A DNA stretch of 64,000 nucleotides from Ruegeria arenilitoris (lineage in GTDB: Bacteria; Pseudomonadota; Alphaproteobacteria; Rhodobacterales; Rhodobacteraceae): the NCBI RefSeq assembly GCF_013030265.1, contig NZ_WPZQ01000005.1, forward strand, positions 248,001 through 312,000. The letters run 5' to 3'. The first letter of the stretch is position 1; the number at the start of each line of letters is the position of its first letter. Position numbers and translations under genes: made by a program. This document shows positions 9,461 to 51,789 of the stretch, piece after piece. The notes under the pieces are model-generated. The model ran no database searches. It worked only from the letters and a program-made list of their open reading frames with translations, and was not told the DNA's origin.

Positions 9461-9631
9461 AACGAGCAAACGTCGCTCATGCAGCGCTGTATGCCTGATT
9501 GATACCACCCAACCTGCGGATTGATGAAAAGGTCCAATTTGAACTTAGAATTCTCATAGTCGGACACGAGCCTTAATTTCACCACCTTCTCGGATGAGAG
9601 AGAATCCAGAGCATCAGTTCGGATCTTATTT

Positions 9632-10858: not shown

Positions 10859-10873
10859 AGCCCTTCGGGCTTC
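10857..10873 (+). terminator. Hairpin at the stop of the membrane protein gene
   Basis: A perfect 7-bp stem (GAAGCCC with GGGCTTC) and a 3-base TTC loop overlaps the TGA stop. No U-run follows at once, so it may be a weak terminator or a 3' stabiliser. Confidence 0.4.
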
Positions 10874-36794: not shown

Positions 36795-37670
36795 TCACGT
36801 TTCGTGGCTGCGAAAAATCCGGGTCGAAGAGAAATAGCGTTCCAGCTCTTCGATTCGTTCCTTGCTTTCATCCCAGCGCGCTTCTTGCACTTCGGCAATC
36901 AGAGTTTCCGAGATCAGTTGCAGGGCGATGGTCGAATCCCAACTGGATGGCGCCTCGACCAATGCATGAAACGTGTAGTTAGCGGTCCTGCCGATGGGAG
37001 AACCCCATTGGTCGGTGAACAGAACCACCGTAACTCCTCGGCTCGACGCAACCTGAGCCAGCTTTTCCAGATGTGCCTCATACCGGCGGATGTCGAAGAT
37101 CACCAAGACCGATGCTTCGTCCATATCCAGCAGATATTGAGGCCAGACATTGGCGGAATTGCCCAACATGGTCACGTTGGGGCGAATGATCTGCATATGG
37201 TTGAACAGGTAATCGGCGTTAGATCGGGTGATGCGCCCGCCAACCACATAAAGATGCCGATCCGTGTCTGCCAATAGCTGAGCAACCGCGTCGAACATCT
37301 CTTTGTCGAGGCGTTCCAGCGTGTGGCGCATGTTGGTCCAGACGGCCTGTGCAAACCGGGTGATAGGATGCTCGGCCTCGTCATCCACAACCCAGGCGTC
37401 GCGCTTGGAGATCGGTTTCTTGATCTGCGCTGCGACCTCTTCGCGGAGCGCTTCCTGCAAGTCCGGGAACCCGTCAAAACCCAACTTGCGCGCCATGCGG
37501 ATCACAGTCGGGGTCGAAACCTGAGCCGCTGCCGCGAGCTTGGTGATCGATTGCAACCCGGCCATGGGATAGTCCTGCAGCAGGATCGAGGCAAGCTGGC
37601 GCTCTGACCGGGTCAGGCCATCAAGCTCATCCTGTATTCGCTGTTTGACAAGTTTGGCGACGGTTGCCAT
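36795..37670 (-). CDS. RpiR/MurR-family transcriptional regulator (HTH plus SIS domain)
   Basis: This 291-residue protein has an N-terminal HTH_6 domain (about 1-77: LTRSERQLASILLQDYP, ITKLAAAAQVSTPTVIRMARKLGFDGF). A SIS domain follows at about 125-255 (DRHLYVVGGRITRSNADYLFNHM, then VLVIFDIRRYEAHLEKL). The family senses phosphosugars or related ligands and usually represses or activates an adjacent catabolic operon. It is divergent from the N-formylglutamate amidohydrolase/TRAP operon, which it probably controls. A candidate promoter on its strand (TAGACA at 37718-37723, TATTCT at 37696-37701) is overlapped by two CTACAG copies, suggesting autoregulation. The ligand is unknown, and no sugar gene is nearby. 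Confidence 0.92.
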   Translation of the reverse strand: MATVAKLVKQRIQDELDGLTRSERQLASILLQDYPMAGLQSITKLAAAAQVSTPTVIRMARKLGFDGFPDLQEALREEVAAQIKKPISKRDAWVVDDEAEHPITRFAQAVWTNMRHTLERLDKEMFDAVAQLLADTDRHLYVVGGRITRSNADYLFNHMQIIRPNVTMLGNSANVWPQYLLDMDEASVLVIFDIRRYEAHLEKLAQVASSRGVTVVLFTDQWGSPIGRTANYTFHALVEAPSSWDSTIALQLISETLIAEVQEARWDESKERIEELERYFSSTRIFRSHET

Positions 37671-37691
37671 CGGCCCCTCTTTTTCAATTCT

Positions 37692-37758
37692 CTACAGAAT
37701 ATTTGTGTTTGTAATTTTGTCTACAGTAATTTTCTTGACAGGTTAGTTTCCGCTGTAG
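37692..37758. promoter_or_regulatory. Divergent control region with repeated CTACAG sites
   Basis: CTACAG occurs at 37692-37697 and 37721-37726 (29 bp apart), with its inverse CTGTAG at 37753-37758. The first two overlap the -10 and -35 of the candidate regulator promoter. A possible plus-strand promoter is TTGTGT at 37703-37708 with TAATTT at 37727-37732. These are candidate binding sites of the RpiR-type regulator. Confidence 0.45.
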
Positions 37759-37761
37759 CAA

Positions 37762-38556
37762 ATGTTACCTATGCCAATTGATACCGAGTCATCATTGCTA
37801 CAGCCGACCGAGGCACCAGCGGCACGCGCACTGAATGCGCGGGGCGGTGCGTCTGCCGTTCTGGTCTGCGAGCATGCCAGTCGTTTTATCCCGGCGTCTT
37901 TGAACGGGCTGGGGCTGGATGAGGCTGCTGCGCGTTCGCACGCGGCCTGGGATATCGGTGCGTTTGAGTTGTCTGTGGAACTGATGGGGGCGCTGGACGC
38001 GCCATTGGTTCACTCGCGTGTCAGCCGATTGGTCTATGACTGCAACCGCCCGCCAGAACGTGCGGATGCGATGCCTCAGCTAAGCGAAGTGTTCCCGGTT
38101 CCCGGCAACCAAAATCTGTCCGATGATCAACGGACCCGGCGGATACGGGAAGTTTATGAGCCGTTTCGGCAGCTGCTGGCATCGACATTGGACGCAAGGC
38201 CCGCACCGCCTGTGCTGATTACCATCCACAGCTTTACACCGGTATATAAGGGTGAGGTTCGGGCCGTCGAACTGGGCATTCTGCACGATGCGGATGATCG
38301 TGCGGCTCAGATCATGCTTCGTCATGCCAAAGACTGTGGACTGCGCGTGGCATTGAACGAACCTTATTCCGCCACCGATGGTGTCACTCACACGTTGCGT
38401 GAGCATGCGATCTCACGTGGCATTCCAAATGTGATGATCGAAGTGCGCAACGATCTGATCGACACACCCACAGGCATAAATCGCATCGCCGGTCAGCTGG
38501 CGCCGATCCTGCGATCAGTGGTCGATGAGCTTTCTCAGGTTGAGGCAAAGATATGA
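37762..38556 (+). CDS. N-formylglutamate amidohydrolase family protein
   Basis: This 264-residue protein belongs to the N-formylglutamate amidohydrolase (HutG2-like) family. Seen are VLVCEHASRFIPASLNGLG, with the metal-binding Glu-His pair, then WDIGAFEL, SRLVYDCNRPP, VLITIHSFTPVY and IPNVMIEVRNDLI, all in family order. Known members release glutamate from N-formylglutamate at the end of histidine breakdown. No hut genes are here, so this one may act on another N-acyl or gamma-glutamyl amide. Two starts are possible, ATG at 37762 or 37771, neither with a strong ribosome binding site. It heads the TRAP operon, with 16 bp to dctQ. Family good; substrate inferred. Confidence 0.85.
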   Translation: MLPMPIDTESSLLQPTEAPAARALNARGGASAVLVCEHASRFIPASLNGLGLDEAAARSHAAWDIGAFELSVELMGALDAPLVHSRVSRLVYDCNRPPERADAMPQLSEVFPVPGNQNLSDDQRTRRIREVYEPFRQLLASTLDARPAPPVLITIHSFTPVYKGEVRAVELGILHDADDRAAQIMLRHAKDCGLRVALNEPYSATDGVTHTLREHAISRGIPNVMIEVRNDLIDTPTGINRIAGQLAPILRSVVDELSQVEAKI

Positions 38557-38572
38557 GAGCAGGAAAGCAGGC

Positions 38573-39091
38573 ATGAAGTTCATGCGGGGATATGTGGCGG
38601 TCATTGACCGTATGAACCGCTGGATTGGCCGTGTGGTCATGTACGGCATCTTTGTGATGATGGGCATTCTGCTCTGGTCTTCGGTCTCAAAAACTTTCTT
38701 TCTTCCATCGCTCTGGACCTTGGAAATGGCGCAGTTCGCGATGGTTGCCTACTACATCCTTGGCGGGCCTTATTCGGTTCAGATGGGATCGAATGTACGG
38801 ATGGACCTTCTCTATAGTGAATGGTCGCATCGCAGACGGGCCTGGACCGATGCGATTACCGTGTTTTTCCTGATCGTCTATCTCGGCGTGATGATTTATG
38901 GCGGGTACGACTCGCTGAGCTATTCGTTGCAATATGGCGAGCGCAGCCCGACCGCCTGGCGACCCTATCTCTGGCCGATCAAGGTGATCATGGTCTTCGG
39001 CCTGTTCCTGATGCTGCTGCAGGCCATATCCGAGCTTTTCAAAGATATTCTCCGCCTTAAGGGCGACGACATCCCGCGTGAGGTGATCTGA
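38573..39091 (+). CDS. TRAP transporter small membrane subunit (DctQ type)
   Basis: The start at 38573 (MKFMRGYVAVIDRMNRW) is supported by AGGAAAGCAGG. An in-frame ATG 48 bp earlier lies inside the previous gene. The 172 residues show four hydrophobic helices, with the conserved DctQ pattern SVSKTFFLPSLWTLEMAQFA and the loop GSNVRMDLLYSEWSHRRRAW. DctQ forms the membrane complex with DctM and helps hand over ligand from the periplasmic receptor. It ends with a 1-base TGATG overlap to the large subunit. The whole QMP set is present here. Confidence 0.9.
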   Translation: MKFMRGYVAVIDRMNRWIGRVVMYGIFVMMGILLWSSVSKTFFLPSLWTLEMAQFAMVAYYILGGPYSVQMGSNVRMDLLYSEWSHRRRAWTDAITVFFLIVYLGVMIYGGYDSLSYSLQYGERSPTAWRPYLWPIKVIMVFGLFLMLLQAISELFKDILRLKGDDIPREVI

Positions 39092-40416
39092 TGTCATACG
39101 AATTGATCGCCATCCTGATGTTCTCGACCATGATGCTGATGCTGCTGACCGGGCAGCGTGTATTTGGTGCCATCGGGTTTGTTGCTGTCGTCGCCGCGCT
39201 TTTGCTTTGGGGCGACCGCGGGGGGTACGATATCGGCTTTGCCGCCGCCATGAAGCTGATGAAATGGTATCCGCTGCTGACGCTGCCGATGTTCATCTTC
39301 ATGGGCTATGTATTGGCAGAGTCCAAAATCGCCGACGATCTCTATAAGATGTTCCACGTCTGGATGGGCGGGCTGAACGGTGGTCTGGCCATCGGTACAA
39401 TCGGGCTGATGGTTCTGATATCGGCCATGAACGGATTGAGCGTTGCCGGTATGGCCATCGGTGCCACCATCGCTCTGCCGGAATTGCTCAAACGCGGCTA
39501 TAACAAGAAGATGGTGACCGGGGTCATTCAGGCCGGGTCATCCCTGGGCATTCTGGTGCCGCCATCTGTGGTGCTTGTGCTTTATGCAATGATTGCAAGG
39601 CAACCGGTTGGTCAGCTTTGGCTGGCGGGTATTCTGCCGGGTCTGATGATGGCGGCGATGTTCATTCTGTACATCGTGATCCGCTGCAAGATTAATCCGG
39701 AATTGGGCCCTGCGCTGCCGAAGGAAGAGCGTGATGTGCCGATGGCGGAAAAACTGCGCCTCTTGCGCGCGGGTCTGCTGCCGATCGGGATCTTTGCTGC
39801 GATGATGGTTCCCTTTGTCAACGGCTGGACCTCGCTTGTTGAAAGCTCGGCCATTGGTGCGCTGACCGCTTTTGCGGCAGCCGTTTTGAAAGGGCGAATG
39901 ACCCGTGAGGTCTTTGAAACCTCTGTTCGCTCAACCCTTGGCATCACCTGCATGTTCATGTGGATTATTCTTGCCGCATTGGCGTTTGGCGCGGTGTTCG
40001 ATGGTCTGGGTGCGGTGCGTGCGATCGAAAATCTGTTCACGGAACGTCTGGGCCTGAACCCGTGGATGATCCTGATCCTGATGCAGCTCAGCTTTATCCT
40101 GATGGGCACCTTTCTGGACGATACCGCGATGCTGGTGATCGTTGCCCCGCTATACGTCCCGCTTGTGGGCGAGTTAGGTTTCGACCTGATCTGGTACGGC
40201 GTGCTTTATACGATCACCACGCAGATCGCCTATATGACACCGCCGTTCGGCTATAACCTGTTCCTGATGCGGGCCATGGCTCCGCCCGAGATTTCACTGC
40301 GCGACATCTACGGATCGATCCTGCCATTCGTTCTGGTGATGACACTTGCATTGGCCATCATCATGACCTTTCCGCAGATCGCGCTGTGGCTGCCGGATTA
40401 CATTTACAACAAATGA
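39091..40416 (+). CDS. TRAP transporter large membrane subunit (DctM type)
   Basis: This 441-residue protein has about eleven to twelve hydrophobic helices. Family signatures include PLLTLPMFIFMGYVLAESKI, SAMNGLSVAGMAIGA, IQAGSSLGILVPPSVVLVLY and a late QIAYMTPPFGYNLFLMRAMAP. It is the ion-coupled translocation subunit of a tripartite periplasmic transporter for an organic acid or similar solute. It is fused in translation to dctQ by a TGATG overlap and followed 72 bp later by the receptor gene. The ligand cannot be stated from this subunit. Confidence 0.94.
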   Translation: MSYELIAILMFSTMMLMLLTGQRVFGAIGFVAVVAALLLWGDRGGYDIGFAAAMKLMKWYPLLTLPMFIFMGYVLAESKIADDLYKMFHVWMGGLNGGLAIGTIGLMVLISAMNGLSVAGMAIGATIALPELLKRGYNKKMVTGVIQAGSSLGILVPPSVVLVLYAMIARQPVGQLWLAGILPGLMMAAMFILYIVIRCKINPELGPALPKEERDVPMAEKLRLLRAGLLPIGIFAAMMVPFVNGWTSLVESSAIGALTAFAAAVLKGRMTREVFETSVRSTLGITCMFMWIILAALAFGAVFDGLGAVRAIENLFTERLGLNPWMILILMQLSFILMGTFLDDTAMLVIVAPLYVPLVGELGFDLIWYGVLYTITTQIAYMTPPFGYNLFLMRAMAPPEISLRDIYGSILPFVLVMTLALAIIMTFPQIALWLPDYIYNK

Positions 40417-40433
40417 TCCCGGACCAACCGGGA
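40417..40433 (+). terminator. Small hairpin between dctM and dctP
   Basis: A 6-bp stem (TCCCGG / CCGGGA) with a 5-base loop starts right after the dctM stop. There is no U-run. It may stop decay from the 5' side and allow higher expression of the receptor gene. Confidence 0.35.
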
Positions 40434-40488
40434 CAAGGGTGAGGGGATATCCTTTCGCAAATTTGAAACTGACCAACGGAGAGAGAGA

Positions 40489-41520
40489 ATGACGAACAGA
40501 CGTACATTTCTAAAAGGGGCCGCAGCGGCACCTGCTGCTGCTTTGGCAACACCGGCGCTGGCGCAATCGACGATCAGATGGCGGATGCAGACCTATGCGG
40601 GCCCGGCACTGGCTGAGCATGTGATCGACCCTGCAATCAAGATGTTCAACGACATCGCTGGTGACCGGATGCAGATCGAGCTGTTCTATGCAGATCAGCT
40701 GGTTCCGACGGGCGAGCTGTTCCGCGCCATGCAGCGCGGCACGATCGATGCGGTGCAGTCGGATGATGACTCGATGGCGTCCCCAACCGAAGTGACCGTG
40801 TTTGGCGGCTACTTCCCGTTTGCATCGCGCTATTCGCTGGATGTACCGGTTCTCTTCAACCAGTACGGTCTGAATGAGATCTGGGACGAGGAATACTCGA
40901 AGGTCGGCGTAAAGCACATCTCTGCCGGTGCATGGGATCCGTGCCACTTTGCGACCAAAGACCCGATCAACAGTCTGGCGGACCTGAAGGGCAAGCGCAT
41001 CTTTACTTTCCCGACAGCGGGTCGCTTCCTGTCGCAGTTCGGCGTTGTTCCTGTCACCCTGCCATGGGAAGACATTGAAGTTGCGGTACAGACCGGCGAG
41101 CTGGACGGCATCGCATGGTCCGGCATCACCGAAGACTACACAGTCGGCTGGGCGGACGTGACCAACTACTTCCTGACCAACAACGTGTCGGGCGCATGGG
41201 CGGGTCACTTCTTTGCCAACATGGATCGCTGGAACGAACTGCCCGAAGATCTGAAGACCCTGTTCAAGGTCTGCTGTGACCAATCACATTACTACCGTCA
41301 GTGGTGGTATTGGGGTGGCGAAGCGTCCCTGCGCGTCAATGGCGACAAGCTGAAACTGACCACGATCCCGGATGAAGAATGGGCGCAGGTCGAAGAGGCT
41401 GCCGTCAAGTTCTGGGATGAAATCGCAGCCGAAAGCCCTGTAAAGGCGAAGGTTGTCGAAATCTTCAAACAGTACAACGCAACCATGCAAAAAGCTGGCC
41501 GGCCTTATCGCTACGGCTAA
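40489..41520 (+). CDS. TRAP transporter periplasmic receptor (DctP type), Tat-type signal
   Basis: This 343-residue binding protein has a twin-arginine signal peptide (NRRTFLKGAAAAPAAALATP, cleavage after ALA near residue 24). The mature part begins STIRWRMQTYAGPALAEHV and follows the DctP fold. It includes FYADQLVPTGELFRAMQRG and KDPINSLADLKGKRIFT, with a family-type Arg at the later RFLSQFGVVPVTLPWEDIE segment. Export in folded form suggests the ligand or fold matures in the cytoplasm. The ribosome binding site GGAGAGAGAGA is very strong, as expected for a receptor needed in excess. It is followed by a stable hairpin. The ligand is not identified. Confidence 0.94.
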   Translation: MTNRRTFLKGAAAAPAAALATPALAQSTIRWRMQTYAGPALAEHVIDPAIKMFNDIAGDRMQIELFYADQLVPTGELFRAMQRGTIDAVQSDDDSMASPTEVTVFGGYFPFASRYSLDVPVLFNQYGLNEIWDEEYSKVGVKHISAGAWDPCHFATKDPINSLADLKGKRIFTFPTAGRFLSQFGVVPVTLPWEDIEVAVQTGELDGIAWSGITEDYTVGWADVTNYFLTNNVSGAWAGHFFANMDRWNELPEDLKTLFKVCCDQSHYYRQWWYWGGEASLRVNGDKLKLTTIPDEEWAQVEEAAVKFWDEIAAESPVKAKVVEIFKQYNATMQKAGRPYRYG

Positions 41521-41534
41521 GACTTTGCCAAAAC

Positions 41535-41560
41535 GACCCGCCCCTTTTGTGGGGCGGGTC
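41535..41560 (+). terminator. Strong hairpin after the TRAP receptor gene
   Basis: A perfect 10-bp GC-rich stem (GACCCGCCCC / GGGGCGGGTC) with loop TTTTGT follows the dctP stop by 14 bp. No U-run follows, so it is either a partial terminator or a 3' stabiliser ahead of the glutamine synthetase-like gene. Confidence 0.6.
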
Positions 41561-41613
41561 AAACGGATTGAATAGCCGGTGATCTCTGAGACCGGTCAGC
41601 ATAAAGGTGGCAC

Positions 41614-42966
41614 ATGCTCACGTTCGAACATCTCAAGACCCAGGTTTCAGAAGGGGCCGTAGATACGGTTCTGGTTTGCATGGTGGACATGCAGGGCCGG
41701 TTGATGGGCAAGCGGTTTCATGCAGGGCATTTTGTGGCAGGCGCGTGGGAAGAGACCCATTGCTGCAACTATCTGCTGGCCACCGATCTTGAGATGGGCA
41801 CGCCCGACGGATACGCCTCGACCAGTTGGGAGCGGGGCTATGGCGACTATGTCATGAAACCCGATCTGGATACTTTGCGCCCTGTGCCGTGGCTGGAAGG
41901 TACGGTGATGGTGATGTGCGACGTGCTGGATCACCACACGCATGATGAGGTGCCGCATTCACCTCGGGCCATCCTCAAAAAGCAGGTCAACCGTCTGAAA
42001 GCCATGGGCTATGACGCGATGACTGCTACCGAGCTGGAATTCTTCCTGTTCGAGAAGAGCTTTGACCAGATCCGCAAAGAAGGCTTCCGCGATCTGGAGC
42101 CGATCTCGGGCTATAACGAAGACTATCATATCCTGCAGACCACCAAGGAAGAGCATGTGATGCGCCCGATCCGCAACAATCTGTGGAATGCGGGCATACC
42201 GGTCGAGAACACAAAGGGTGAGGCCGAGACCGGGCAGGAAGAGCTGAACATCAAATACGCACAGGCGATGGACACGGCCGAGTATCACTCGATCGCCAAG
42301 AACGCAGTGAAAGAGATTGCCTGGCAGCATGGCCACGCCGCGACGTTCCTGCCGAAATGGCATCATGACAAGGTCGGTAGTTCCTCGCACGTGCACCAGT
42401 CGCTCTGGGCTGATGGCAAACCTGCCTTCTACGACGCATCGGATGAGTTGGGCATGTCGGCGCTGATGAAAAGCTATATGGCAGGTCTGCTGAAATATGC
42501 CGGTGATTATACCTATTTCATGGCCCCTTACATCAACAGCTACAAACGCTTCATGAAGGGCACCTTTGCACCGACACGGATCATCTGGTCAGTCGACAAC
42601 CGGACTGCCGGGTTCCGTCTGTGCGGGGATGGGACCAAGGCGGTTCGAGTTGAATGCCGGATCCCGGGCTCGGACATGAACCCGTATCTGGCAATGGCCG
42701 GAATGCTGGCGGCCGGGATTTCAGGTATCGAAGAGGGTCTGGAGTTGCAGCCGCCCACCAAGGGCGATGTGTACCAAGGCGAAACCGGCATGATCCCGGG
42801 TAACCTGCGAGCAGCGCGGGATGCGTTGCATGGCTCGGCCATGTTACGTGCGTCCATGGGCGATGAGGTGGTCGATCATTATACCCGAGCGGCCGAGGTT
42901 GAGATCGAGGAATTCGAGCGCGTGGTGACGGATTGGGAAGTCGCTCGTGGGTTTGAACGGGCGTAA
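41614..42966 (+). CDS. Glutamine synthetase-like gamma-glutamylamide ligase
   Basis: This 450-residue protein belongs to the glutamine synthetase superfamily. Metal and substrate motifs are kept: the ELEFFLF pair, GEAETGQEELNIKYA, the GSSSHVHQSLW loop, INSYKRF, and VECRIPGSDMNPYLAMAGMLA. It lacks a KLYDLPPE-type adenylylation site, which fits catabolic paralogues (PuuA, IpuC) rather than housekeeping GlnA. Those enzymes join glutamate to an amine with ATP. Here the gene lies between a TRAP transporter and aldehyde and alcohol dehydrogenases, with an N-formylglutamate-amidohydrolase-like hydrolase at the head of the cluster. A gamma-glutamylation route for an imported amine is therefore likely. 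Superfamily certain; amine substrate unknown. Confidence 0.9.
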   Translation: MLTFEHLKTQVSEGAVDTVLVCMVDMQGRLMGKRFHAGHFVAGAWEETHCCNYLLATDLEMGTPDGYASTSWERGYGDYVMKPDLDTLRPVPWLEGTVMVMCDVLDHHTHDEVPHSPRAILKKQVNRLKAMGYDAMTATELEFFLFEKSFDQIRKEGFRDLEPISGYNEDYHILQTTKEEHVMRPIRNNLWNAGIPVENTKGEAETGQEELNIKYAQAMDTAEYHSIAKNAVKEIAWQHGHAATFLPKWHHDKVGSSSHVHQSLWADGKPAFYDASDELGMSALMKSYMAGLLKYAGDYTYFMAPYINSYKRFMKGTFAPTRIIWSVDNRTAGFRLCGDGTKAVRVECRIPGSDMNPYLAMAGMLAAGISGIEEGLELQPPTKGDVYQGETGMIPGNLRAARDALHGSAMLRASMGDEVVDHYTRAAEVEIEEFERVVTDWEVARGFERA

Positions 42967-43056
42967 CAGACGGGATGTGAGGCCGACCTCACATGTTTAT
43001 CAGAGTTACTGAAAGAAGAAGCAGGGCGCAGACGCCCTCTATGTGGAGTTGATGGC

Positions 43057-44439
43057 ATGAGCCAGACACTAAAATGCATCTCGCCGATTGATGGATCGGT
43101 TTATGCGGAACGTGAAGTTCTGTCGCGTGAGGCTGCGTTTGAAGCCGCAGGCCGCGCAAGGGCAACACAGGCTGAATGGGCTGCGCGTCCGTTGCAGGAG
43201 CGGATTGATCTTGTGATGGCGGGCGTGGCGGCTGTTGGCGCCATGAACGATGAGATCGTGCCCGAACTGGCGCATATGATGGGACGCCCGGTGCGTTATG
43301 GCGGTGAGTTTGGTGGCTTTAATGAGCGCGCCAGCCATATGGCCGAGATCGCCGGGGCGTCTCTTACTGACATCGCCGTGGGCGAGGACGAGACGTTCAA
43401 GCGCTACATCAAGCGCATCCCACATGGCGTGGTTTTTGTGGTTGCGCCGTGGAATTACCCCTACATGACCGCAATCAATACGGTCGCGCCCGCACTGATT
43501 GCAGGAAACACTGTGATCCTGAAACATGCCACACAGACACTGCTGGTGGGTGAGCGTATGGCACAGGCCTTCCATTCCGCAGGTGTGCCTGAGGACGTGT
43601 TCCAAAATGTGTTCCTGAGCCATGACGTGACCAATGACCTGATCGCGGGCAACGCGTTTGATTTCGTGAACTTCACCGGCTCGGTCGGTGGCGGTCAGGC
43701 GATGGAGCGTGCAGCGGCGGGTACGTTTACCGGTGTTGGCACCGAGCTGGGAGGTAAAGATCCCGGCTATGTCATGGAAGATGCCGATCTGGATGCAGCC
43801 GTTGATACTCTGATCGACGGAGCAATGTTCAACTCGGGCCAGTGCTGTTGCGGGATCGAGCGGATTTACGTGCATGAAAGCCTCTATGACGACTTCGTTG
43901 CCAAGGCAGTTGAGGTCGTAAAGGGTTATAAGCTGGGTAATCCGCTGGATGCTGAGACGACAATTGGTCCGATGGCTAATGTCCGGTTCGCTAATGAGGT
44001 CCGAGCGCAGATCGCCGAGGCTGTCGAAGCCGGGGCGGTAGCCCATATCGACACCTTCGCCGAGGATGACGGGGGCGCTTATCTGACGCCACAGATCCTG
44101 ACCAGTGTCACTCATGACATGCGCGTGATGCGGGATGAGAGCTTTGGTCCGGTGGTCGGCATCATGAAAGTGTCGTCGGATGACGAGGCCATCGCGTTGA
44201 TGAACGACAGCGAGTTTGGCCTGACCGCCAGCCTGTGGACCCGCGATGTGGATCGCGCGGCACGGGTAGGTGACGCCATCGAAACCGGCACTGTGTTCAT
44301 GAACCGCGCGGACTATCTGGACCCCGGTCTCTGCTGGACCGGTTGCAAGAATACCGGGCGCGGCGGCGGCTTGTCCGTCATCGGCTATCACAACCTGACA
44401 CGTCCCAAATCCTATCACCTCAAAAAGGTAGCGGGCTAA
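43057..44439 (+). CDS. Aldehyde dehydrogenase family protein
   Basis: The 460 residues carry the NAD(P)-dependent aldehyde dehydrogenase fold. Seen are VVFVVAPWNYPYMTAINT, the NTVILKHA cofactor segment, FTGSVGGGQAMERAA, the general-base Glu in GTELGGKDPGY and the catalytic Cys in SGQCCCGIERIYV. The C-terminal ESFGPVVGIMKV is also present. It should oxidise an aldehyde to an acid, perhaps the gamma-glutamylated aldehyde made by the alcohol dehydrogenase next to it. It lies 90 bp after the glutamine synthetase-like gene and 65 bp before the alcohol dehydrogenase. Family certain. Confidence 0.94.
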   Translation: MSQTLKCISPIDGSVYAEREVLSREAAFEAAGRARATQAEWAARPLQERIDLVMAGVAAVGAMNDEIVPELAHMMGRPVRYGGEFGGFNERASHMAEIAGASLTDIAVGEDETFKRYIKRIPHGVVFVVAPWNYPYMTAINTVAPALIAGNTVILKHATQTLLVGERMAQAFHSAGVPEDVFQNVFLSHDVTNDLIAGNAFDFVNFTGSVGGGQAMERAAAGTFTGVGTELGGKDPGYVMEDADLDAAVDTLIDGAMFNSGQCCCGIERIYVHESLYDDFVAKAVEVVKGYKLGNPLDAETTIGPMANVRFANEVRAQIAEAVEAGAVAHIDTFAEDDGGAYLTPQILTSVTHDMRVMRDESFGPVVGIMKVSSDDEAIALMNDSEFGLTASLWTRDVDRAARVGDAIETGTVFMNRADYLDPGLCWTGCKNTGRGGGLSVIGYHNLTRPKSYHLKKVAG

Positions 44440-44504
44440 GGACGACATGCCTGCCTCGCTTCCCCCTCGGCGAGGCAGGCCTCTATCTTGAAGGAAACTC
44501 TGAC

Positions 44505-45650
44505 ATGAGCCTTGTTGGAAACTGGTCGTATCCGACCGCAATCAAATTTGGTGCCGGGCGCATCAAGGAACTGCCCGAAGCCTGTGCGGCTGCAGGCATG
44601 AAAAAGCCTCTGCTGGTCACGGACAAAGGGCTTGCCGATCTGCCGATTACCACAGCGACGCTGGATATCATGGAGGCGGCCGGTCTTGGCCGCGGCCTGT
44701 TCAGCGATGTCGATCCCAACCCGAATGAAAAGAACCTGGAAGCTGGCGTTGCCGCCTATAACGCGGGAGGCCATGACGGCGTGATCGCGTTTGGTGGTGG
44801 CTCAGGTCTGGACTTGGGCAAGATGGTGGCCTTTATGGCCGGTCAGACGCGGCCCGTCTGGGATTTCGAGGACATCGGAGACTGGTGGACCCGCGCTAAC
44901 GCTGACGTCATCGCGCCGATCATCGCCGTTCCGACAACTGCCGGTACGGGGTCCGAGGTCGGACGCGCCAGCGTCATCACCAACTCCGAGACGCATGCGA
45001 AGAAGATTATCTTCCATCCCAAAGTTCTGCCAACAGTCGTGATCTGTGATCCTGAGCTGACAGTGGGCATGCCCAAGTTCATCACAGCGGGAACCGGCCT
45101 TGATGCCTTTGCGCATTGTGTCGAAGCCTATTCCAGCCCGCACTACCATCCGATGAGCCAGGGTATTGCGCTGGAAGGCATGCGTTTGGTCAAGGAATAC
45201 CTGCCACGAGCCTATGCAGACGGTACCGATATCGAGGCGCGTGCCCAGATGATGAGTGCAGCGGCGATGGGTGCAACCGCGTTCCAAAAGGGTCTGGGTG
45301 CAATCCACGCCATGAGCCATCCTATTGGTGCGGTGTTCAACACCCATCACGGCACGACCAACGCGGTTTGTATGCCAGCGGTTCTGGATTTCAATGCGTC
45401 GGCTATTGCAGACCGGTTCAATGCGGCGGCAGCTTATCTGGGTATCGAGGGCGGTTTCGAGGGGTTCCGTGCCTTCGTACAGGAATTCAATGATTCATTG
45501 GGCATCCCGCGCAAACTGTCGGAACTGGGTGTGACCGAAGCATCAATCCCTGAATTGGTTAAGGGCGCGATCATTGACCCATCCTGCGGTGGCAACCCAA
45601 TCGAACTGACCGAGGAAAATCTGACGCAATTGTTCAAAGCGGCGCTTTGA
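44505..45650 (+). CDS. Iron-containing alcohol dehydrogenase
   Basis: The start at 44505 (MSLVGNWSYPTAIKFGAGRI) has an AAGGAAA ribosome binding site. The frame is open upstream to 44343 inside the previous gene, which is not a real start. The protein of 381 residues is a group III alcohol dehydrogenase: GGGSGLDLGK binds NAD(P), VPTTAGTGSEVG follows, and the metal ligands are Asp in GTGLDAFAHCVEAY, His in AIHAMSHPIGA and His in NTHHGTTNA. It should oxidise a primary or amino alcohol to the aldehyde handled by the upstream aldehyde dehydrogenase. It is the last gene of the operon and is followed by a strong terminator. Confidence 0.94.
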   Translation: MSLVGNWSYPTAIKFGAGRIKELPEACAAAGMKKPLLVTDKGLADLPITTATLDIMEAAGLGRGLFSDVDPNPNEKNLEAGVAAYNAGGHDGVIAFGGGSGLDLGKMVAFMAGQTRPVWDFEDIGDWWTRANADVIAPIIAVPTTAGTGSEVGRASVITNSETHAKKIIFHPKVLPTVVICDPELTVGMPKFITAGTGLDAFAHCVEAYSSPHYHPMSQGIALEGMRLVKEYLPRAYADGTDIEARAQMMSAAAMGATAFQKGLGAIHAMSHPIGAVFNTHHGTTNAVCMPAVLDFNASAIADRFNAAAAYLGIEGGFEGFRAFVQEFNDSLGIPRKLSELGVTEASIPELVKGAIIDPSCGGNPIELTEENLTQLFKAAL

Positions 45651-45748: not shown

Positions 45749-47299
45749 TTAACGGTCAGAATTTCCAGTGAGCTTGCGAATGGGAAAGCGGCTTCGGATC
45801 TCCTGATCCAGCTTGTCCGATATGTGAGAGGGCGCAGGCATCGAAAGCAGTTCACGGGTTTTGCTGCGGGCCCGCTCAAGAAGATCCTTGTCGGGGGCCG
45901 CTGCCCATTCCTGCGGTGTGCGCCGGTCGGCCAGCGCGGGATAAAAGTAGTCACTTTCCATCCTGTTCAGGGTTTGACCATGCCCTAGAAAATGACCCGG
46001 CCCATCCACACAAACCTCGCGTATCGCCTCAAGCGACAATGTCTCTTTTGAGACCTCAAACCCACGTGTTGCGCGCATGACCGAACCGATCAGATCATTG
46101 TCCAGAATGAAACTTTCGAGTGAGCAACCCAGTAATGAGCCGTACATGCCCGCCGCCTCATAAATCAGATTGGCGCCGGCAAGGGAGGCGAGCAATTCGG
46201 TGTACCCTTTCTCAAACCCGGCCTGAAAATCAGGCAACTTGCTGTCCGTCATGCCTGCGCTGACGGCGCAGGGAATGCCGTAGAACCGGGCCATCTGCGC
46301 ACAGGCGGCCATCAGCAGACCCTGTTCCGCGCTGCCCCCGGACATTGCGCCGGTGCGCAGGTCGCTGACAAAGGGCAAGGCACCGAATGTGGCGGGATGA
46401 CCTGGGTTCAGCAGGTTGACATAAACGATGCCCGCCAGGACTTCGGCGGTTTGCTGTGCGACGGCACCGGCCAGTGGGGCAGGGCTAGTCGCCCCGGCCT
46501 GCCCGGCGGACACCAGTTTGAGAGGGATACCGTGACGGGCGGCACATTCGATGACGCCCAATGCCTCCTCGGCGAAGGTCAGAGGCGGCACGATGAAACA
46601 GGTCGATACACAGATTGGCGGTCTTGCCCGCAGGGCTTCTGGCCCACCGGTTATCATCTCAAGGATCTGAACGGCATCTTCCATCGCCTCGGTCGAGCCG
46701 AACGAGGTTCCTGTTGGTTTTGCAGTTCCTTTCAGGCAGGCATAGGCTGTGTTCAGATCCATCTCGCGTGGATCAGAAAGATCCCGTGCGACAACCGTAC
46801 GCTGGAACATGTGGATGTTTGGCAGAACATGGGCCAGTCGCGCCATGTCATAGAGGTCCTGCAGCGTGGTATCACGAATGTCACCGGTCTGGCTGTCGAT
46901 AATGTGCACAGCCGCCCCTGATGTGCCGAAATGAGTGCGTGCGCCTGAAGGGTCCAGATCGAACTGCGGGCTCTGCCCGAACAGTTTGAAATCTCGACCT
47001 GCTCCCTTGAGCGCTTCCCGCACCATGTGCTCGGGAAAAAGCAGGCGTCCATCTCCGGTCAATGAGCCTCCGGCGGCACAGACAGTATCTATACAGGTTC
47101 GGGTCGCGCCTTTGACGCCGATCTCTTCAAGGACGCGCATCGCCGTTTCATCGATCATCCTGATTTCGTCGTTTGTCAGAGGGGCATATTGCCCGCCTTC
47201 GATACCAGGCCAGATAGCAGTGCTTGGTCCCGAACCTGCGCCTTCGTTGCGCACTTCTTTTCGGGCTGCGCGCCCGCCGCTGCGTCTGCGTGCTGTCAT
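45749..47299 (-). CDS. MttB-family (trimethylamine methyltransferase-like) protein, no amber codon
   Basis: This 516-residue protein belongs to the MttB superfamily, which includes pyrrolysine-containing trimethylamine methyltransferases and the non-pyrrolysine glycine betaine methyltransferases. Seen are an N-terminal basic head (TARRRSGGRAARK), YAPLTNDEIRMIDETAMRVLEEIG, then THFGTSGAAVHIID, and a late MYGSLLGCSLESFILDNDLIG. The frame reads through without an internal TAG, so this is a non-pyrrolysine member. Such proteins move a methyl group from a quaternary amine to a corrinoid protein. No corrinoid protein or activator is encoded next to it. Its start overlaps the MmgE/PrpD stop by 4 bp. 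Family good; substrate unknown. Confidence 0.87.
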   Translation of the reverse strand: MTARRRSGGRAARKEVRNEGAGSGPSTAIWPGIEGGQYAPLTNDEIRMIDETAMRVLEEIGVKGATRTCIDTVCAAGGSLTGDGRLLFPEHMVREALKGAGRDFKLFGQSPQFDLDPSGARTHFGTSGAAVHIIDSQTGDIRDTTLQDLYDMARLAHVLPNIHMFQRTVVARDLSDPREMDLNTAYACLKGTAKPTGTSFGSTEAMEDAVQILEMITGGPEALRARPPICVSTCFIVPPLTFAEEALGVIECAARHGIPLKLVSAGQAGATSPAPLAGAVAQQTAEVLAGIVYVNLLNPGHPATFGALPFVSDLRTGAMSGGSAEQGLLMAACAQMARFYGIPCAVSAGMTDSKLPDFQAGFEKGYTELLASLAGANLIYEAAGMYGSLLGCSLESFILDNDLIGSVMRATRGFEVSKETLSLEAIREVCVDGPGHFLGHGQTLNRMESDYFYPALADRRTPQEWAAAPDKDLLERARSKTRELLSMPAPSHISDKLDQEIRSRFPIRKLTGNSDR

Positions 47300-48633
47300 T
47301 TGGCTATCTCGCTGAAAAAATTTTCAACATCTGGCGCATCTGGCCAGTTCATGAGCTTTGAGAAACCGTCTTTGTCGCGACCGGTGACTTCGGCGAACTT
47401 GTGGGCGAGTTGTTCGTTCATCATCGGGTTTTGGGGCGCACCAAATGGATAGGCGCAGCGGGTCTCAAGAACTTCGCCCCCTGAAAGTTCAACCCGCAAA
47501 CAATCGGGCTGATCCGGGTCGTAGTTCAGGTCGGGATTTAGAGCGGGTTCTGCCGTCACTGTCGTCAGCTGGATCAACCGCGCAACTTCGGGGCTTTCCC
47601 AAAAACGAGCTTCACTATCGTTCAACGTCAGATCACCTGCCACAAGTGCCTGTCCGACACAGGCAGGCGCTGAAAACAAAGCCTCGCTCCGGGTGACGGG
47701 GTTCTGAAATGGTAGGATTTCAAAGTGAAAGTCGGGCAGGGTCGCGGATATCGCCGTGACCTTTTCCAACCGATTGATGATGTGCGGGCGCAGCTCCAAT
47801 GCGGCCGTCATCAACCGATGCGTATATCCGCAAGAGGGCCAGGGTTTGAGGATCAGACCATATTGCTGCAAGGCCCATGGTGCGCCCAGATCGGCCAAAG
47901 CCTTTTCAAACCGCGCTTCACTGTGATCGCCCAAAAGGCCCGCGAAACCACGAGGGTGGTCGAGAACATGGGCCTGCGCCGTATTTCCCTCTGCTGCCAT
48001 CAAGGCGGCTTCAAGACCGTTTCGTGCTGCCCATCCGGCTTGCAATGGTTTGGCATTCGAGCCGAATTGAAGGGTCAGGCCCGTCGCCTGCGACACGGAC
48101 AGAGCCAGCGCATGCGACGTCTGTTCGGGTGAAAGTTGCAGCAATCGGGATACGGCGCTGGCCGCGCCTATGGTTCCTAGTGTTGCTGTGCTGTGAAACC
48201 CACGGGCGTAGTGATCCAGCGACACAGCTTCGCCGAGCCGCATGATAATCTCGGCCCCGATGGCATAAGCGTTGCTCAGTTCTTTGCCGCTGGTTGGGCT
48301 GAGATGGGCGGCTGCCAAAAGGGCAGGCAGCAGCACGACAGTCGGGTGCGTGTTTCCCGGCTCTTCCCAGTCGTCCAGATCCCAAGCGTGACCTGCAACC
48401 GCGTTGGCCAGTGCTGCATGGGGCGCCGACAGTTTCTGATCGCTGCCATAAACAGGCGCCGATCCGGTGCCTGTTCGGCTCAAGGCACAAATTGCACGTT
48501 GTGTGACTTCGGCGTCGGCCCCGGCGAGGATACATCCAAAGCAATCAGCGACAGCGGGTGCAATAATCAGCCGCAACTCATCGCACGGCTTTGCGGATGT
48601 GGCGAAATTTGCGAGGCGCTTTATTGCAGTCAC
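47296..48633 (-). CDS. MmgE/PrpD family protein
   Basis: The preferred start is GTG at 48633 (MTAIKRLANFATSA), preceded by GAAGGA. The frame runs on to 48744 inside the upstream gene. The protein is about 445 residues. Family marks are DCFGCILAGADAEVT near the N-terminus, AVAGHAWDLDDWEEPGNTHP with its conserved Asp/His, and a mid-chain FGSNAKPLQAGWAARNGLEAA. Known members include 2-methylcitrate dehydratase and cis-aconitate decarboxylase, so a dehydration or decarboxylation of a carboxylic acid is likely. No other methylcitrate gene is present. It is coupled to the MttB-like gene by ATGA. Confidence 0.9.
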   Translation of the reverse strand: MTAIKRLANFATSAKPCDELRLIIAPAVADCFGCILAGADAEVTQRAICALSRTGTGSAPVYGSDQKLSAPHAALANAVAGHAWDLDDWEEPGNTHPTVVLLPALLAAAHLSPTSGKELSNAYAIGAEIIMRLGEAVSLDHYARGFHSTATLGTIGAASAVSRLLQLSPEQTSHALALSVSQATGLTLQFGSNAKPLQAGWAARNGLEAALMAAEGNTAQAHVLDHPRGFAGLLGDHSEARFEKALADLGAPWALQQYGLILKPWPSCGYTHRLMTAALELRPHIINRLEKVTAISATLPDFHFEILPFQNPVTRSEALFSAPACVGQALVAGDLTLNDSEARFWESPEVARLIQLTTVTAEPALNPDLNYDPDQPDCLRVELSGGEVLETRCAYPFGAPQNPMMNEQLAHKFAEVTGRDKDGFSKLMNWPDAPDVENFFSEIAK

Positions 48634-48646
48634 GGTTGGCCGTCCT

Positions 48647-50128
48647 TCATTCAAATGGATCGGGTTGATGCGGGTCGGTCGATAGCCAGACAGATTTCGT
48701 CTGCATGAAGCAACGCATCCCTTCCCAACCGTTTTCACGGCCATAGCCAGATTGTTTCATGCCACCGACAGGTGATTGGGTGGCGGCGTTGAAGTAATTG
48801 TTGATGTAAACGGTGCCTGCCTCGATGCGGTTCGCAACCCGCATCGCGCGGGCCACATCCTGCGACCAGATGCCGGCGGCTAGACCGTAGATGGTATCGT
48901 TAGCGAGGCGGATTGCGTCTGCCTCATCCGTCCAGGCTTCGGTGCTTACAACGGGGCCAAATACCTCGTTCTGGGCAAGATCGGCGCTGTTTGGAACATC
49001 GGCAAAGATGGTCGGGCCGATGTAGTACCCGGCGTCTCGACAGGCTGAGCGCCCGTCCAGCAGCAGGATGTGCCCTGCTGCTTCGGCGGCTGCGATCCGG
49101 TTCAATACGGCCTCGTAATGTGGCCGGTTCGCCATTGGACCGATCTGTGTTGCCGGATCCAGAGGGTCACCGACGCGGGCTTTGCGAACCACGTCGACCA
49201 GCCTGTTGGTGAATTCATCGATGACGTCTGCATGAACCAATAGTCGAGAGCCCGAGATGCAGCTTTGACCGCCCGGTGGAAAAATCCCGGCTGCAACTCC
49301 GTTGACGGCAAGTTCGATGTCCGCGTCAGGGAAGACGATCTGAGGGGATTTCCCACCAAGCTCCATCACCACGGGCTTTACCTGTTGCGCGGCGGCAACC
49401 GCTGCCGCCTTTCCACCTGCGGTGCCGCCCGTAAAGCTGACCATTCGGACATCGGGGTGTTCGATCATCGGAGCTGCCGTCGTCGGCCCATAGCCGGTGA
49501 CGACGTTCAGGACACCCGGAGGTAGGTCTGCCTCAAGCAGAACATCCATCAGTTCCAGCGTCGAGCAGCTGGAATGCTCAGAAGGTTTCAGAACCACGGT
49601 GTTTCCCGCAGCCAGACAGGGCGCTAGTTTCCAGATCAGTGTTCCAAGCGGTGAGTTCCACGGCAAAACCTGCGCCACAACGCCGAACGGCTCCCACGTC
49701 ATGTAATTGTGGATGTTCGGTGCTTCGGCAGGGATGACGCGACCTTCGAACTTGTCGCACATACCCGCGTAATAATGCCAGCTGTCCACTTGCCATTGCC
49801 CCGGTTTCAGTCCCGGCGTGATCATCGATGGAAGCTTGCCGTTATCCTGTGTCTCGATCGCACCCAGACGGTCAGCGTTTTTTGAGATGACATCGCCAAT
49901 CCGACGCAAAGCCCGCCCACGCTCGGCAGGTTGCATGCGGCCCCATGGTCCGTCGTAAAAGGCGGATTTTGCTACGGCCACCGCCCGGTTTACATCGGCT
50001 TCACGGCAATCGGGTATACGGGCCCAAACCTCTCCGGTCGCGGGGTTTTCGCTGTCGATGTATTCCCCTTCGGCCGGGTCATGCCATTGATTGTTGGCGA
50101 AGTACTGAAAGATACGTTTCTCGGTCAT
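48647..50128 (-). CDS. Aldehyde dehydrogenase (betaine aldehyde dehydrogenase-like)
   Basis: This 493-residue NAD-dependent aldehyde dehydrogenase has VVAQVLPWNSPLGTLIWKLA, NTVVLKPSEHSS and FTGGTAGGKAAAVAA. The general base is in VVMELGGKSPQIVF and the catalytic cysteine in PPGGQSCISGSRLLV. The C-terminus has NEVFGPVVSTEAW and INNYFNAATQSPVGGMKQSG. It is preceded by a GMC alcohol oxidoreductase whose stop overlaps its start by 4 bp. The two look like an alcohol-to-aldehyde-to-acid pair of the BetA/BetB type. The substrate could be an amino alcohol such as choline or a relative, but this is inference from neighbours. Confidence 0.94.
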   Translation of the reverse strand: MTEKRIFQYFANNQWHDPAEGEYIDSENPATGEVWARIPDCREADVNRAVAVAKSAFYDGPWGRMQPAERGRALRRIGDVISKNADRLGAIETQDNGKLPSMITPGLKPGQWQVDSWHYYAGMCDKFEGRVIPAEAPNIHNYMTWEPFGVVAQVLPWNSPLGTLIWKLAPCLAAGNTVVLKPSEHSSCSTLELMDVLLEADLPPGVLNVVTGYGPTTAAPMIEHPDVRMVSFTGGTAGGKAAAVAAAQQVKPVVMELGGKSPQIVFPDADIELAVNGVAAGIFPPGGQSCISGSRLLVHADVIDEFTNRLVDVVRKARVGDPLDPATQIGPMANRPHYEAVLNRIAAAEAAGHILLLDGRSACRDAGYYIGPTIFADVPNSADLAQNEVFGPVVSTEAWTDEADAIRLANDTIYGLAAGIWSQDVARAMRVANRIEAGTVYINNYFNAATQSPVGGMKQSGYGRENGWEGMRCFMQTKSVWLSTDPHQPDPFE

Positions 50129-51789
50129 TCGGGTCTCTTTCCGGGGTATTCAGGTGGTAAAGCTGTGCGTCCAAGGATCATGTCAGCAGCCTTTTCAGCC
50201 ATCATGACAACGGTTGCGTAGAGGTTTCCAGTGATTTGAGTGGGCATCGCAGAGGCGTCGCAAACGCGCAGCCCGTCGACGCCGTGAACACGCAGTCCGT
50301 TGTCCAGCACATCTCCCATTCGAGCTGTGCAGCAGGGATGATGCCCTGTATAGGCGCTTTGACGGATCGCTTCGGTGACTTCAGCCTCCGTATGCGCATC
50401 TTTCCAAACCCCGATTTCGCCCGTGTGGTATCGGGCGATGTCGGGCTGAGACATCACCTCACGCGTGACGGCAACGCCTTTTCTCAAATCATCCAGATCT
50501 TTTGTGTGGGCCAGATAATTCGGATCAATCAACGGATGCGTGCGTGGATCGGAATTGGCCAACCGAACGGTTCCGGTTGATTGAGGCCGTTCAAGATTGA
50601 TGTCGATCTGAATGCCCGGCCGGGCCATCTTGCGGCCGCGGACTAATAGCTTGCGACCCAGGCGCTGAAGCAGTGGCACATTCTCATCCGCGCCGTTTCC
50701 TAGGTTCTCCTCGACCACCATGGGCGTCATAAACACCTCTAGCTCAGGCAGGGCTGGGTCCTCGAAAGCGTGGAAGAGCACGGTTGAAAAAAATGCGCCA
50801 CCGCCGGGGCCAGAGCCATTCAGCAGCCACTTGCCCATCAAGATTGCGGCCTTGTCCAGCCGCTGGTGTTTTGCGTGGCTCAGATCGATCCGCTCTGATC
50901 CGTATTGCATCGAAACATCCGGGTGATCAGCCAGGTGAGCTCCAACCGAAGGCAAATCCGAGACGACATCAATTCCGTGATCGCGCAGATGATCCGCTGG
51001 TCCGATACCTGAAAGCATCAGCAACTGCGGCGAACCAAAAGCACCCTGACATACGATGACTTCTTGATCTGCGCGGACGACCTCACCGTTGGTGGTTTCA
51101 ACCCCGATTGCGCGTTTGCCTTCGAATATGATCCGCCCGATCTGGGCATTTGTACGGACCGTCAGATTTGAGTGTCGGTTCTGCAGGTACGCAATCGCCG
51201 AAGATTGTCGGATGCCGTTTGATACGGTGCTGTCGTTTCGCGCGACGCCTGTTCTTTCAGATCCGTTGAAGTCATCAAGCTCTGTGTGTCCTGCTGCCTT
51301 GGCGGCTGAGATAAAGGCGCGTTCGACTTCACCGAAGTTACGCGCTGGTTCCGTTTTGAGCGGTCCATTGGTGCCGTGCCATTCATCCTGACGATCGCGT
51401 GACCCTTCGGCGCGGCGGAAGTAGGGCAGGACATCCGCATAAGACCACCCCTCCAACCCCAGTTGCCGCCAGTTATCATAATCGGCTGCCACGCCACGCA
51501 TATAGATCATACCGTTAACGATGGAAGATCCACCCAATGCCTTGCCACGGGCATAGTAGATGCTGCGCCCATTCAGGCCGGCTTGCGGGACCGAAGTGTA
51601 ACCCCAATCCAGCCGTGGATTGCCAAATACAAATCCGTTTCCGGCTGGCATCCGGATGAAAAGGTCGCGCCCATGGCCACCTGCCTCGATCAAACAGACC
51701 GATACATCCGGGTTTTCTGAGAGCCGGGCCGCCAGTACGCATCCCGCCGAGCCGCCACCGGCAATTATATAGTCGTAGGCAGGGTTCAT
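50125..51789 (-). CDS. GMC-family FAD-dependent alcohol oxidoreductase (choline dehydrogenase-like)
   Basis: The 554 residues form a GMC oxidoreductase. The FAD loop is YIIAGGGSAGCVLAARLSE with LIEAG. A second signature is KALGGSSIVNGMIYMRG. The GMC pattern GAFGSPQLLMLSGIGP is near residue 250. The active-site pair is His in GHHPCCTARMG and Asn in QITGNLYATVVMM near the C-terminus. It oxidises a primary alcohol, passing electrons to a quinone or other acceptor. It overlaps the genes on both sides by 4 bp. Family certain; choline itself is only one option, as no other betaine gene is nearby. Confidence 0.93.
   Translation of the reverse strand: MNPAYDYIIAGGGSAGCVLAARLSENPDVSVCLIEAGGHGRDLFIRMPAGNGFVFGNPRLDWGYTSVPQAGLNGRSIYYARGKALGGSSIVNGMIYMRGVAADYDNWRQLGLEGWSYADVLPYFRRAEGSRDRQDEWHGTNGPLKTEPARNFGEVERAFISAAKAAGHTELDDFNGSERTGVARNDSTVSNGIRQSSAIAYLQNRHSNLTVRTNAQIGRIIFEGKRAIGVETTNGEVVRADQEVIVCQGAFGSPQLLMLSGIGPADHLRDHGIDVVSDLPSVGAHLADHPDVSMQYGSERIDLSHAKHQRLDKAAILMGKWLLNGSGPGGGAFFSTVLFHAFEDPALPELEVFMTPMVVEENLGNGADENVPLLQRLGRKLLVRGRKMARPGIQIDINLERPQSTGTVRLANSDPRTHPLIDPNYLAHTKDLDDLRKGVAVTREVMSQPDIARYHTGEIGVWKDAHTEAEVTEAIRQSAYTGHHPCCTARMGDVLDNGLRVHGVDGLRVCDASAMPTQITGNLYATVVMMAEKAADMILGRTALPPEYPGKRPE

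Follow-up and report, generated by a model that had tools for sequence, protein, structure and literature searches.

The window analysed here, a 64,000-nucleotide stretch of Ruegeria arenilitoris contig NZ_WPZQ01000005.1 (positions 248,001 to 312,000 of the contig, assembly GCF_013030265.1), carries at 36795-45650 a locus that, with a probability of roughly 93%, is an eto operon for the uptake of ethanolamine and its breakdown to glycine and glutamate via gamma-glutamylation. Operons of this type have been described before; what is new is the host, whose genome comprises 4.62 Mb in 25 contigs and is 99.99% complete. Ethanolamine is a breakdown product of cell membranes, and the operon would place the host among the marine bacteria that recycle membrane-lipid ethanolamine, and published work describes such recycling as widespread in the ocean. 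Gene content, relatedness, synteny, conserved family residues and an operator pair are established directly for the window. The original prediction, made from the sequence alone, had described a catabolic operon fed by a tripartite ATP-independent periplasmic (TRAP) transporter and controlled by an RpiR-type regulator; every gene that it named was found in place, and profile searches confirmed the families. The RpiR gene is divergent on the minus strand, and the co-directional run on the plus strand (37762-45650) is therefore one of seven genes, not eight.

Gene order and relatedness

The eight genes of the window recur in the same order and the same orientation at the locus of Phaeobacter/Roseobacter sp. 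MED193 (L067), where MED193_10021-10056 are described in PMC10132767 as encoding RpiR, GGAH, EtoV, EtoW, EtoX, ethanolamine gamma-glutamylase, gamma-glutamylacetaldehyde-amide dehydrogenase and gamma-glutamylethanolamide dehydrogenase. The receptor is 90% and the ligase and dehydrogenases 84-91% identical to their MED193 counterparts, whereas the regulator, the N-formylglutamate amidohydrolase (FGase)-type hydrolase and DctQ reach 49-53% and DctM 60% (Table 1), and the paired TGTA-N8-TACA sites of the window are absent from MED193. According to PMC10132767, the receptor EtoX of MED193 binds ethanolamine with a Kd of 7.9 uM and phosphoethanolamine raises five proteins of the operon, namely GGAH, EtoX, the ligase and both dehydrogenases; among these operons, ethanolamine binding and phosphoethanolamine induction are published only for the MED193 proteins.

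The same arrangement extends well beyond these two genomes. Among the best 80 of at least 583 receptor relatives, compared by tblastn (loci are given L-numbers and genomes G-numbers), all eight genes are kept with their order and orientation in 66 loci, including two (L049, L063) in which the contig ends inside a gene. In five of the remaining 14 loci (L006, L013, L019, L058, L078) the contig stops short of the full set, and nine are without at least one gene in the sequence covered. An arrangement kept in 66/80 loci is not chance, though the loci are not independent because they are closely related.

Receptor and ligase

The receptor of the window matches Csal_0678 (PDB 4uab and 4xf5, one sequence) at E 1.2e-192, the next best match standing at E 1.4e-19. 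Chromohalobacter salexigens is the source of Csal_0678 and 4uab its structure (PMC12410723); ethanolamine is present in the Csal_0678 crystal (PMC12410723, PMC4646407), and the protein is described as having no carboxylate-binding residue of the Arg-147 type (PMC4646407).

The ligase, which resembles glutamine synthetase (GS), matches the structures 5dm3 (E 2.6e-237) and 11zs (E 7.1e-171), and the matches to 5dm3 and, for the receptor, to Csal_0678 are near full length. We take 5dm3 to be Csal_0679. As had been predicted, the ligase is without the adenylylation motif: its DVYQGETG aligns to NLYDLPAEE of the genome's own GlnA, the latter being that motif. Phe318 of the ligase (GTFAP) aligns to the Glu of GFEAP in the same GlnA, the Glu327 position, and Phe occupies this position in 73/73 relatives, within GTFAP, GSFAP or ATFAP (with the window included, 64/74 were caught by a first pattern and 10 more by inspection). 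GlnA4, which ligates ethanolamine in Streptomyces, is reported to have Phe331 in place of Glu327 (PMC6529630). The Phe fits an enzyme that glutamylates an amine rather than ammonia. The GlnA4 route of Streptomyces coelicolor (SCO1611-1615; PMC6529630) resembles the operon in its GS-like ligase with Phe at this position, its two dehydrogenases and its predicted FGase-family amidohydrolase, whereas no TRAP transporter is mentioned for it in the available parts of that paper.

Proposed pathway and alternative substrates

The receptor and ligase matches, together with Phe at the Glu327 position, argue that ethanolamine would be glutamylated, oxidised twice and hydrolysed to glycine and glutamate. 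In this scheme the TRAP transporter with its receptor (40489-41520) would bring ethanolamine in, the GS-like enzyme would link it to the gamma-carboxyl of glutamate at the expense of ATP, and the iron-containing alcohol dehydrogenase (Fe-ADH) would oxidise the protected alcohol to an aldehyde, which the aldehyde dehydrogenase (ALDH) would turn into gamma-glutamylglycine. The FGase-type protein, with its zinc-carboxypeptidase-like fold, would then release glutamate and glycine, and the divergent RpiR-type regulator would act via two TGTA-N8-TACA operators bracketing the promoter. We infer every catalytic step in the host, the substrate of the hydrolase above all, as well as the contact between regulator and operators. 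The Puu and Ipu routes likewise proceed by ligation to glutamate, oxidation and hydrolysis, but differ in substrate and in the family of the hydrolase (PuuD-type, IpuF). The gamma-glutamylation-type chemistry of the original prediction is well supported, in that the closest kin of receptor and ligase include the ethanolamine proteins of Chromohalobacter and their counterparts in the eto operon of MED193.

As for the substrate, the original prediction had allowed an amino alcohol or a diamine. A Puu-like route, in which putrescine or another diamine entered through the TRAP transporter and a gamma-glutamylputrescine synthetase opened the pathway, could draw on analogous chemistry and on a match of the ligase to the NCBIfam model of that synthetase (PuuA), but the match, at 191.6 bits, is far under the cut-off of 650. 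The cluster also includes an alcohol dehydrogenase, an enzyme superfluous to a diamine route, and the nearest solved relative of the receptor is an ethanolamine-binding one. No PuuD-type Peptidase_C26 hydrolase was found among the ten proteins scanned in the cluster region, the seven C26 matches of the genome being on other contigs. The diamine reading is extremely improbable and was rejected on the profile score, the PuuD-type gene missing from the cluster and the relatives of the receptor, whereas an amino alcohol is well supported by the relatives of receptor and ligase and by the Kd of 7.9 uM of MED193 EtoX. Better Puu candidates are two more GS-like genes at C24:143387-146473, which have weak Peptidase_C26-family (GATase) matches nearby and are perhaps a separate polyamine gamma-glutamylation cluster.

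Only slightly more probable is that the same transporter and pathway serve in nature mainly for a different short amino alcohol, for example L-alaninol (2-amino-1-propanol), which would be processed via gamma-glutamylalanine to alanine. Structures 4uab and 4xf5 have one common receptor sequence, and 4xf5 presumably holds 2-amino-1-propanol; CqsR, a structurally unrelated ethanolamine receptor, is reported to have been solved with ethanolamine, serinol and L-alaninol. Against this stand the induction of the MED193 operon by phosphoethanolamine and the affinity of EtoX for ethanolamine (PMC10132767), and ethanolamine is the abundant compound among those derived from membranes. A cobalamin-type ethanolamine lyase was rejected as well: EutB had no match anywhere in the genome in a search that detected the E. 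coli control, so there is no sign of such an enzyme.

Table 1. Features of the locus in the window and of possible headgroup cassettes in relatives
Feature	Position	Strand	Identity to MED193 copy	Basis and remarks
RpiR/MurR-type regulator (HTH_6 + SIS)	36795-37670	-	49% (L067)	Pfam; counterpart of published eto regulator
Predicted regulator operator 1, TGTAATTTTGTCTACA, TGTA-N8-TACA	37710-37725			9 bp upstream of -35-like TTGACA
-35-like TTGACA between the two operators	37735-37740	+		Conserved as TTGAC[A] in 19 aligned intergenic regions
Predicted regulator operator 2, TGTAGCAAATGTTACC	37754-37769			Lies 44 bp downstream of operator 1 with 7/8 dyad bases; several relatives have the exact dyad
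FGase-family protein, predicted gamma-glutamylglycine amidohydrolase (GGAH)	37762-38556	+	53%	PF05013; PDB 2odf
TRAP small permease EtoV (DctQ)	38525-39091	+	53%	Pfam; ATG at 38573 located after FGase stop
TRAP large permease EtoW (DctM)	39091-40416	+	60%	Pfam, NCBIfam
TRAP receptor EtoX (DctP), ethanolamine-binding type	40489-41520	+	90%	4uab/4xf5 match
GS-like ligase (Gln-synt_C), predicted ethanolamine gamma-glutamylase (gamma-glutamylethanolamide synthetase)	41614-42966	+	84%	5dm3 match; F318
Aldehyde dehydrogenase (Aldedh), predicted gamma-glutamylacetaldehyde-amide to gamma-glutamylglycine	43057-44439	+	88%	Pfam
Iron-containing alcohol dehydrogenase (Fe-ADH), predicted gamma-glutamylethanolamide dehydrogenase	44505-45650	+	91%	Pfam, profile search with sequence from 44508; starts ATG
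Cassette in relatives: 4upk-type phosphodiesterase, GlpR-type regulator, HisN-like, Na/Pi (parts vary)	L150:8239-13240; L149:7005-12427; L151:3247-9881; L174, L176, L177, L178			

The FGase-type hydrolase

The hydrolase matches PF05013 with 144.8 bits (cut-off 28.9) and its predicted model has a mean pLDDT of 95.7, the first ten residues being low. The model superposes on 2odf (Atu2144) with Z 38.8 over 249 aligned residues at 1.2 A and on the N-formylglutamate amidohydrolase 2q7s with Z 23.7 over 235 at 2.8 A, followed by poly-gamma-glutamate hydrolases together with a protein related to them (Z 12.4-13.4) and then by zinc carboxypeptidases. The fold that the predicted model has in common with FGases does not show function. 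H38, R89, D93, N95, R96, R127, H156 and E227, among others, are invariant in 76 copies of the hydrolase (that of the window and those at 75 receptor loci) and are also found in the genome's three other paralogs; the roles of these residues we infer. Translation probably starts at the next ATG, 37771, rather than at the first, 37762, because the latter falls within a predicted operator; the low pLDDT of the first ten residues points the same way. To the MED193 copy the protein is 49% identical over the full sequence and 53% by tblastn.

The genome carries four FGase-family genes, the window copy being 26, 29 and 34% identical to the other three, whose contexts were read by eye from open reading frames. 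The paralog at C6:127247-127900, 26% identical to the window hydrolase, lies between genes that by eye look like hutH and hutU, and because of this position the role of HutG looks filled elsewhere in the genome; the window gene sits in the eto operon, not in a hut operon.

Deglutamylation had been put forward in the original prediction as a new role for the FGase family. As an idea it is not new, having been in print as a prediction since at least 2019: a deglutamylase role of an FGase-family amidohydrolase is predicted in PMC6529630, which credits the in-silico prediction of a glutamylation route in Chromohalobacter (Gerlt 2016), Table 2 of PMC9397018 gives PF05013 as gamma-glutamylglycine amidohydrolase, and PMC10132767 names the hydrolase gene GGAH. 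A novel ethanolamine pathway was also the subject of a meeting abstract of 2015, cited in a reference list. In the portions of this literature that were available, the hydrolysis of gamma-glutamylglycine by an FGase-family protein is the step still resting on prediction.

Whether the hydrolase accompanies the pathway was assessed in 100 genomes of the family, mostly one per genus, with thresholds of E <= 1e-40 for a window-type FGase and E <= 1e-150 for an eto-type ligase. Since some PF05013 gene is present in 61/61 family genomes, presence alone is uninformative, and the stricter window-type match and nearness to the ligase were used instead. Window-type FGases occur in 46/59 genomes with the ligase versus 6/41 without it (Fisher p 2.5e-10, kinship not corrected). 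They lie within 6 kb of the ligase in 44/59 ligase genomes, mostly about 3 kb away, a distance of TRAP length, and in 4/59 (G021, G083, G097, G101) directly beside it with no space for TRAP genes between. This co-occurrence supports hydrolysis of gamma-glutamylglycine by the FGase-family protein, and the gene is present at 75/80 receptor loci.

Several observations nonetheless weigh against the eto assignment or this part of it. The ligase occurs without a window-type FGase in 13/59 genomes, and no other of the eight proteins is conserved as poorly as the FGase, whose mean identity is 52.8% over 66 loci versus 86% for each dehydrogenase; an enzyme with a set place in a pathway would not be expected to vary so much. 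Five genomes have receptor and ligase genes apart: in two (G062, G063) the FGase, 53% identical to that of the window, is directly upstream of the distant ligase, in two (G064, G066) it remained with the TRAP genes, and in one (G065) it is absent. The ligase homolog of G065 (L055; L148:5458-8104) is 62% identical, and its genome gave no FGase match. G061 (L068) keeps the ligase and both dehydrogenases with no FGase adjoining and has three FGase-family matches, which are of other kinds by score or, for the low-scoring one at C138, by identity: this copy shares 56% with a different paralog but 36% with the window FGase. Identity was used for it as the two low-scoring kinds cannot be told apart by bit score (145.2 and 146.7 bits in the genome of the window). 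If G065 and the 13 genomes without a window-type FGase are complete, another deglutamylase would be needed, which raises the question of the replacement enzyme. No assay of gamma-glutamylglycine hydrolysis by the FGase family was found in the available parts of PMC6529630, PMC9397018 and PMC10132767. In the receptor, E215 is invariant in 81/81 sequences and was paired with the published platform residue Glu220 as the nearest Glu (chain index 217), not via coordinates, and the MED193 intergenic region is without TGTA-N8-TACA dyads.

Some of these points would equally suit an FGase-type protein that stands outside deglutamylation, acting on N-formylglutamate or another N-acyl amino acid while a different enzyme cleaves gamma-glutamylglycine. 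The family takes its name from N-formylglutamate; the low conservation of the operon protein, the 13/59 ligase genomes without a window-type copy, G061, G065 and the two split genomes in which it is with the TRAP genes rather than the ligase are all in keeping with such a role, and a Peptidase_C26-family protein is encoded elsewhere in the genome (C11:475202, 206 bits). We consider this unlikely, given the separate and apparently hut-linked paralog, the frequency of the gene at receptor loci and near the ligase, and the MED193 copy, which is reported to rise along with the operon on phosphoethanolamine (PMC10132767).

Promoter and predicted operators

The intergenic region between regulator and hydrolase was compared across 73 loci (72 relatives and the window) and against 100 dinucleotide shuffles, one region of 4 bases being too short to shuffle. 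Exact TGTA-N8-TACA is found in 21/73 regions (shuffles: mean 0.07, maximum 1) and a site with at least 7/8 dyad bases in 37/73 (mean 2.65, maximum 8), a contrast that overstates independence because the sequences are related. Spacers of 4-7 and 9-14 between TGTA and TACA yielded no site in the intergenic regions. A pair of dyads 42-46 bp apart is present in 16/73 regions, in 15 of them at exactly 44 bp (a count without shuffle control), the pair of L024 consisting of two imperfect sites. In the whole genome the operator pair occurs once and a reversed control pattern not at all. The pair is confined to the subgroup that contains the window, many relatives being without it. On these sequence patterns, we propose it as a candidate binding site of the window-type RpiR regulator.

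Possible headgroup cassettes in relatives

In a few relatives the eto genes stand next to genes for a phosphodiesterase, a phosphatase and a Na/Pi transporter. A Na/Pi transporter gene stands between receptor and ligase in 8/80 loci, these being Ruegeria operons (L014, L020 at 9154-10869, L021, L022, L027, L029, L034, L041); Pfam confirmed its family in three loci, with a PhoU domain in two of the three. In L149 and L150, a GlpR/DeoR-type regulator, a HisN/inositol-phosphatase-like gene and a Na/Pi transporter run straight into FGase, ligase, ALDH and Fe-ADH. A sulfatase-fold enzyme, whose L150 copy matches 4upk ('phosphonate monoester hydrolase') at E 2.9e-258, is divergent beside the GlpR/DeoR-type regulator in L150 and in L151 has such a regulator on one side and the ligase on the other; PotD-type receptor genes are nearby in L149, L150 and L177. 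It is in L149, L150 and L151 that the cassette adjoins the catabolic genes of the eto pathway; the window's own operon is without cassette neighbours.

Close 4upk-type relatives (E up to 1e-150) are present in 14/100 family genomes, of which 13 have an eto-type ligase, versus 46/86 of the others (Fisher p 0.007, kinship not corrected). Among 12 of the 14 that were inspected, three carry it next to GlpR, phosphatase and Na/Pi genes, and one next to GlpR and Na/Pi genes but no phosphatase; eight, including the window's genome, are without such a cassette around it, one of these (G099) having a ligase about 8 kb away.

We tentatively consider it possible that in some relatives an intracellular phosphoester route for an intact headgroup such as glycerophosphoethanolamine leads into the eto pathway as its last part. 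The headgroup would enter via a PotD-type ABC transporter, ethanolamine and phosphate would be freed by the 4upk-type phosphodiesterase together with the HisN/inositol-phosphatase-like enzyme, the Na/Pi protein with its PhoU domain would dispose of the phosphate, and the GlpR-type regulator would sense glycerol-3-phosphate while the eto enzymes consumed the ethanolamine. Import of intact headgroups is stated in PMC10132767 as remaining to be determined, and the route, if real, would be a candidate for the Pho-independent path that this paper, in its available parts, leaves open. The cassette, though found in few relatives, would then be a possible answer to how headgroups are used without Pho phosphatases, possibly a missing step in membrane-lipid recycling, and an enzyme now classed as a phosphonate monoester hydrolase would gain a native function. 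Among the openly licensed papers listed, no title or abstract opening makes a claim on phosphonate monoester hydrolase in phospholipid metabolism or on its genomic context.

Neighbouring genes

Convergent to the operon, a run on the minus strand (45749-52871) encodes an MttB-family methyltransferase, MmgE/PrpD, an aldehyde dehydrogenase, a GMC oxidoreductase and an isocitrate/isopropylmalate-type dehydrogenase, and is adjoined by a LysR gene (52965-53855, plus strand); it looks like a separate catabolic operon. MttB-family genes 48% identical to that of the window are found near eto-type TRAP genes at L036:9380-10921 and at L040 from 13917, both on the minus strand.

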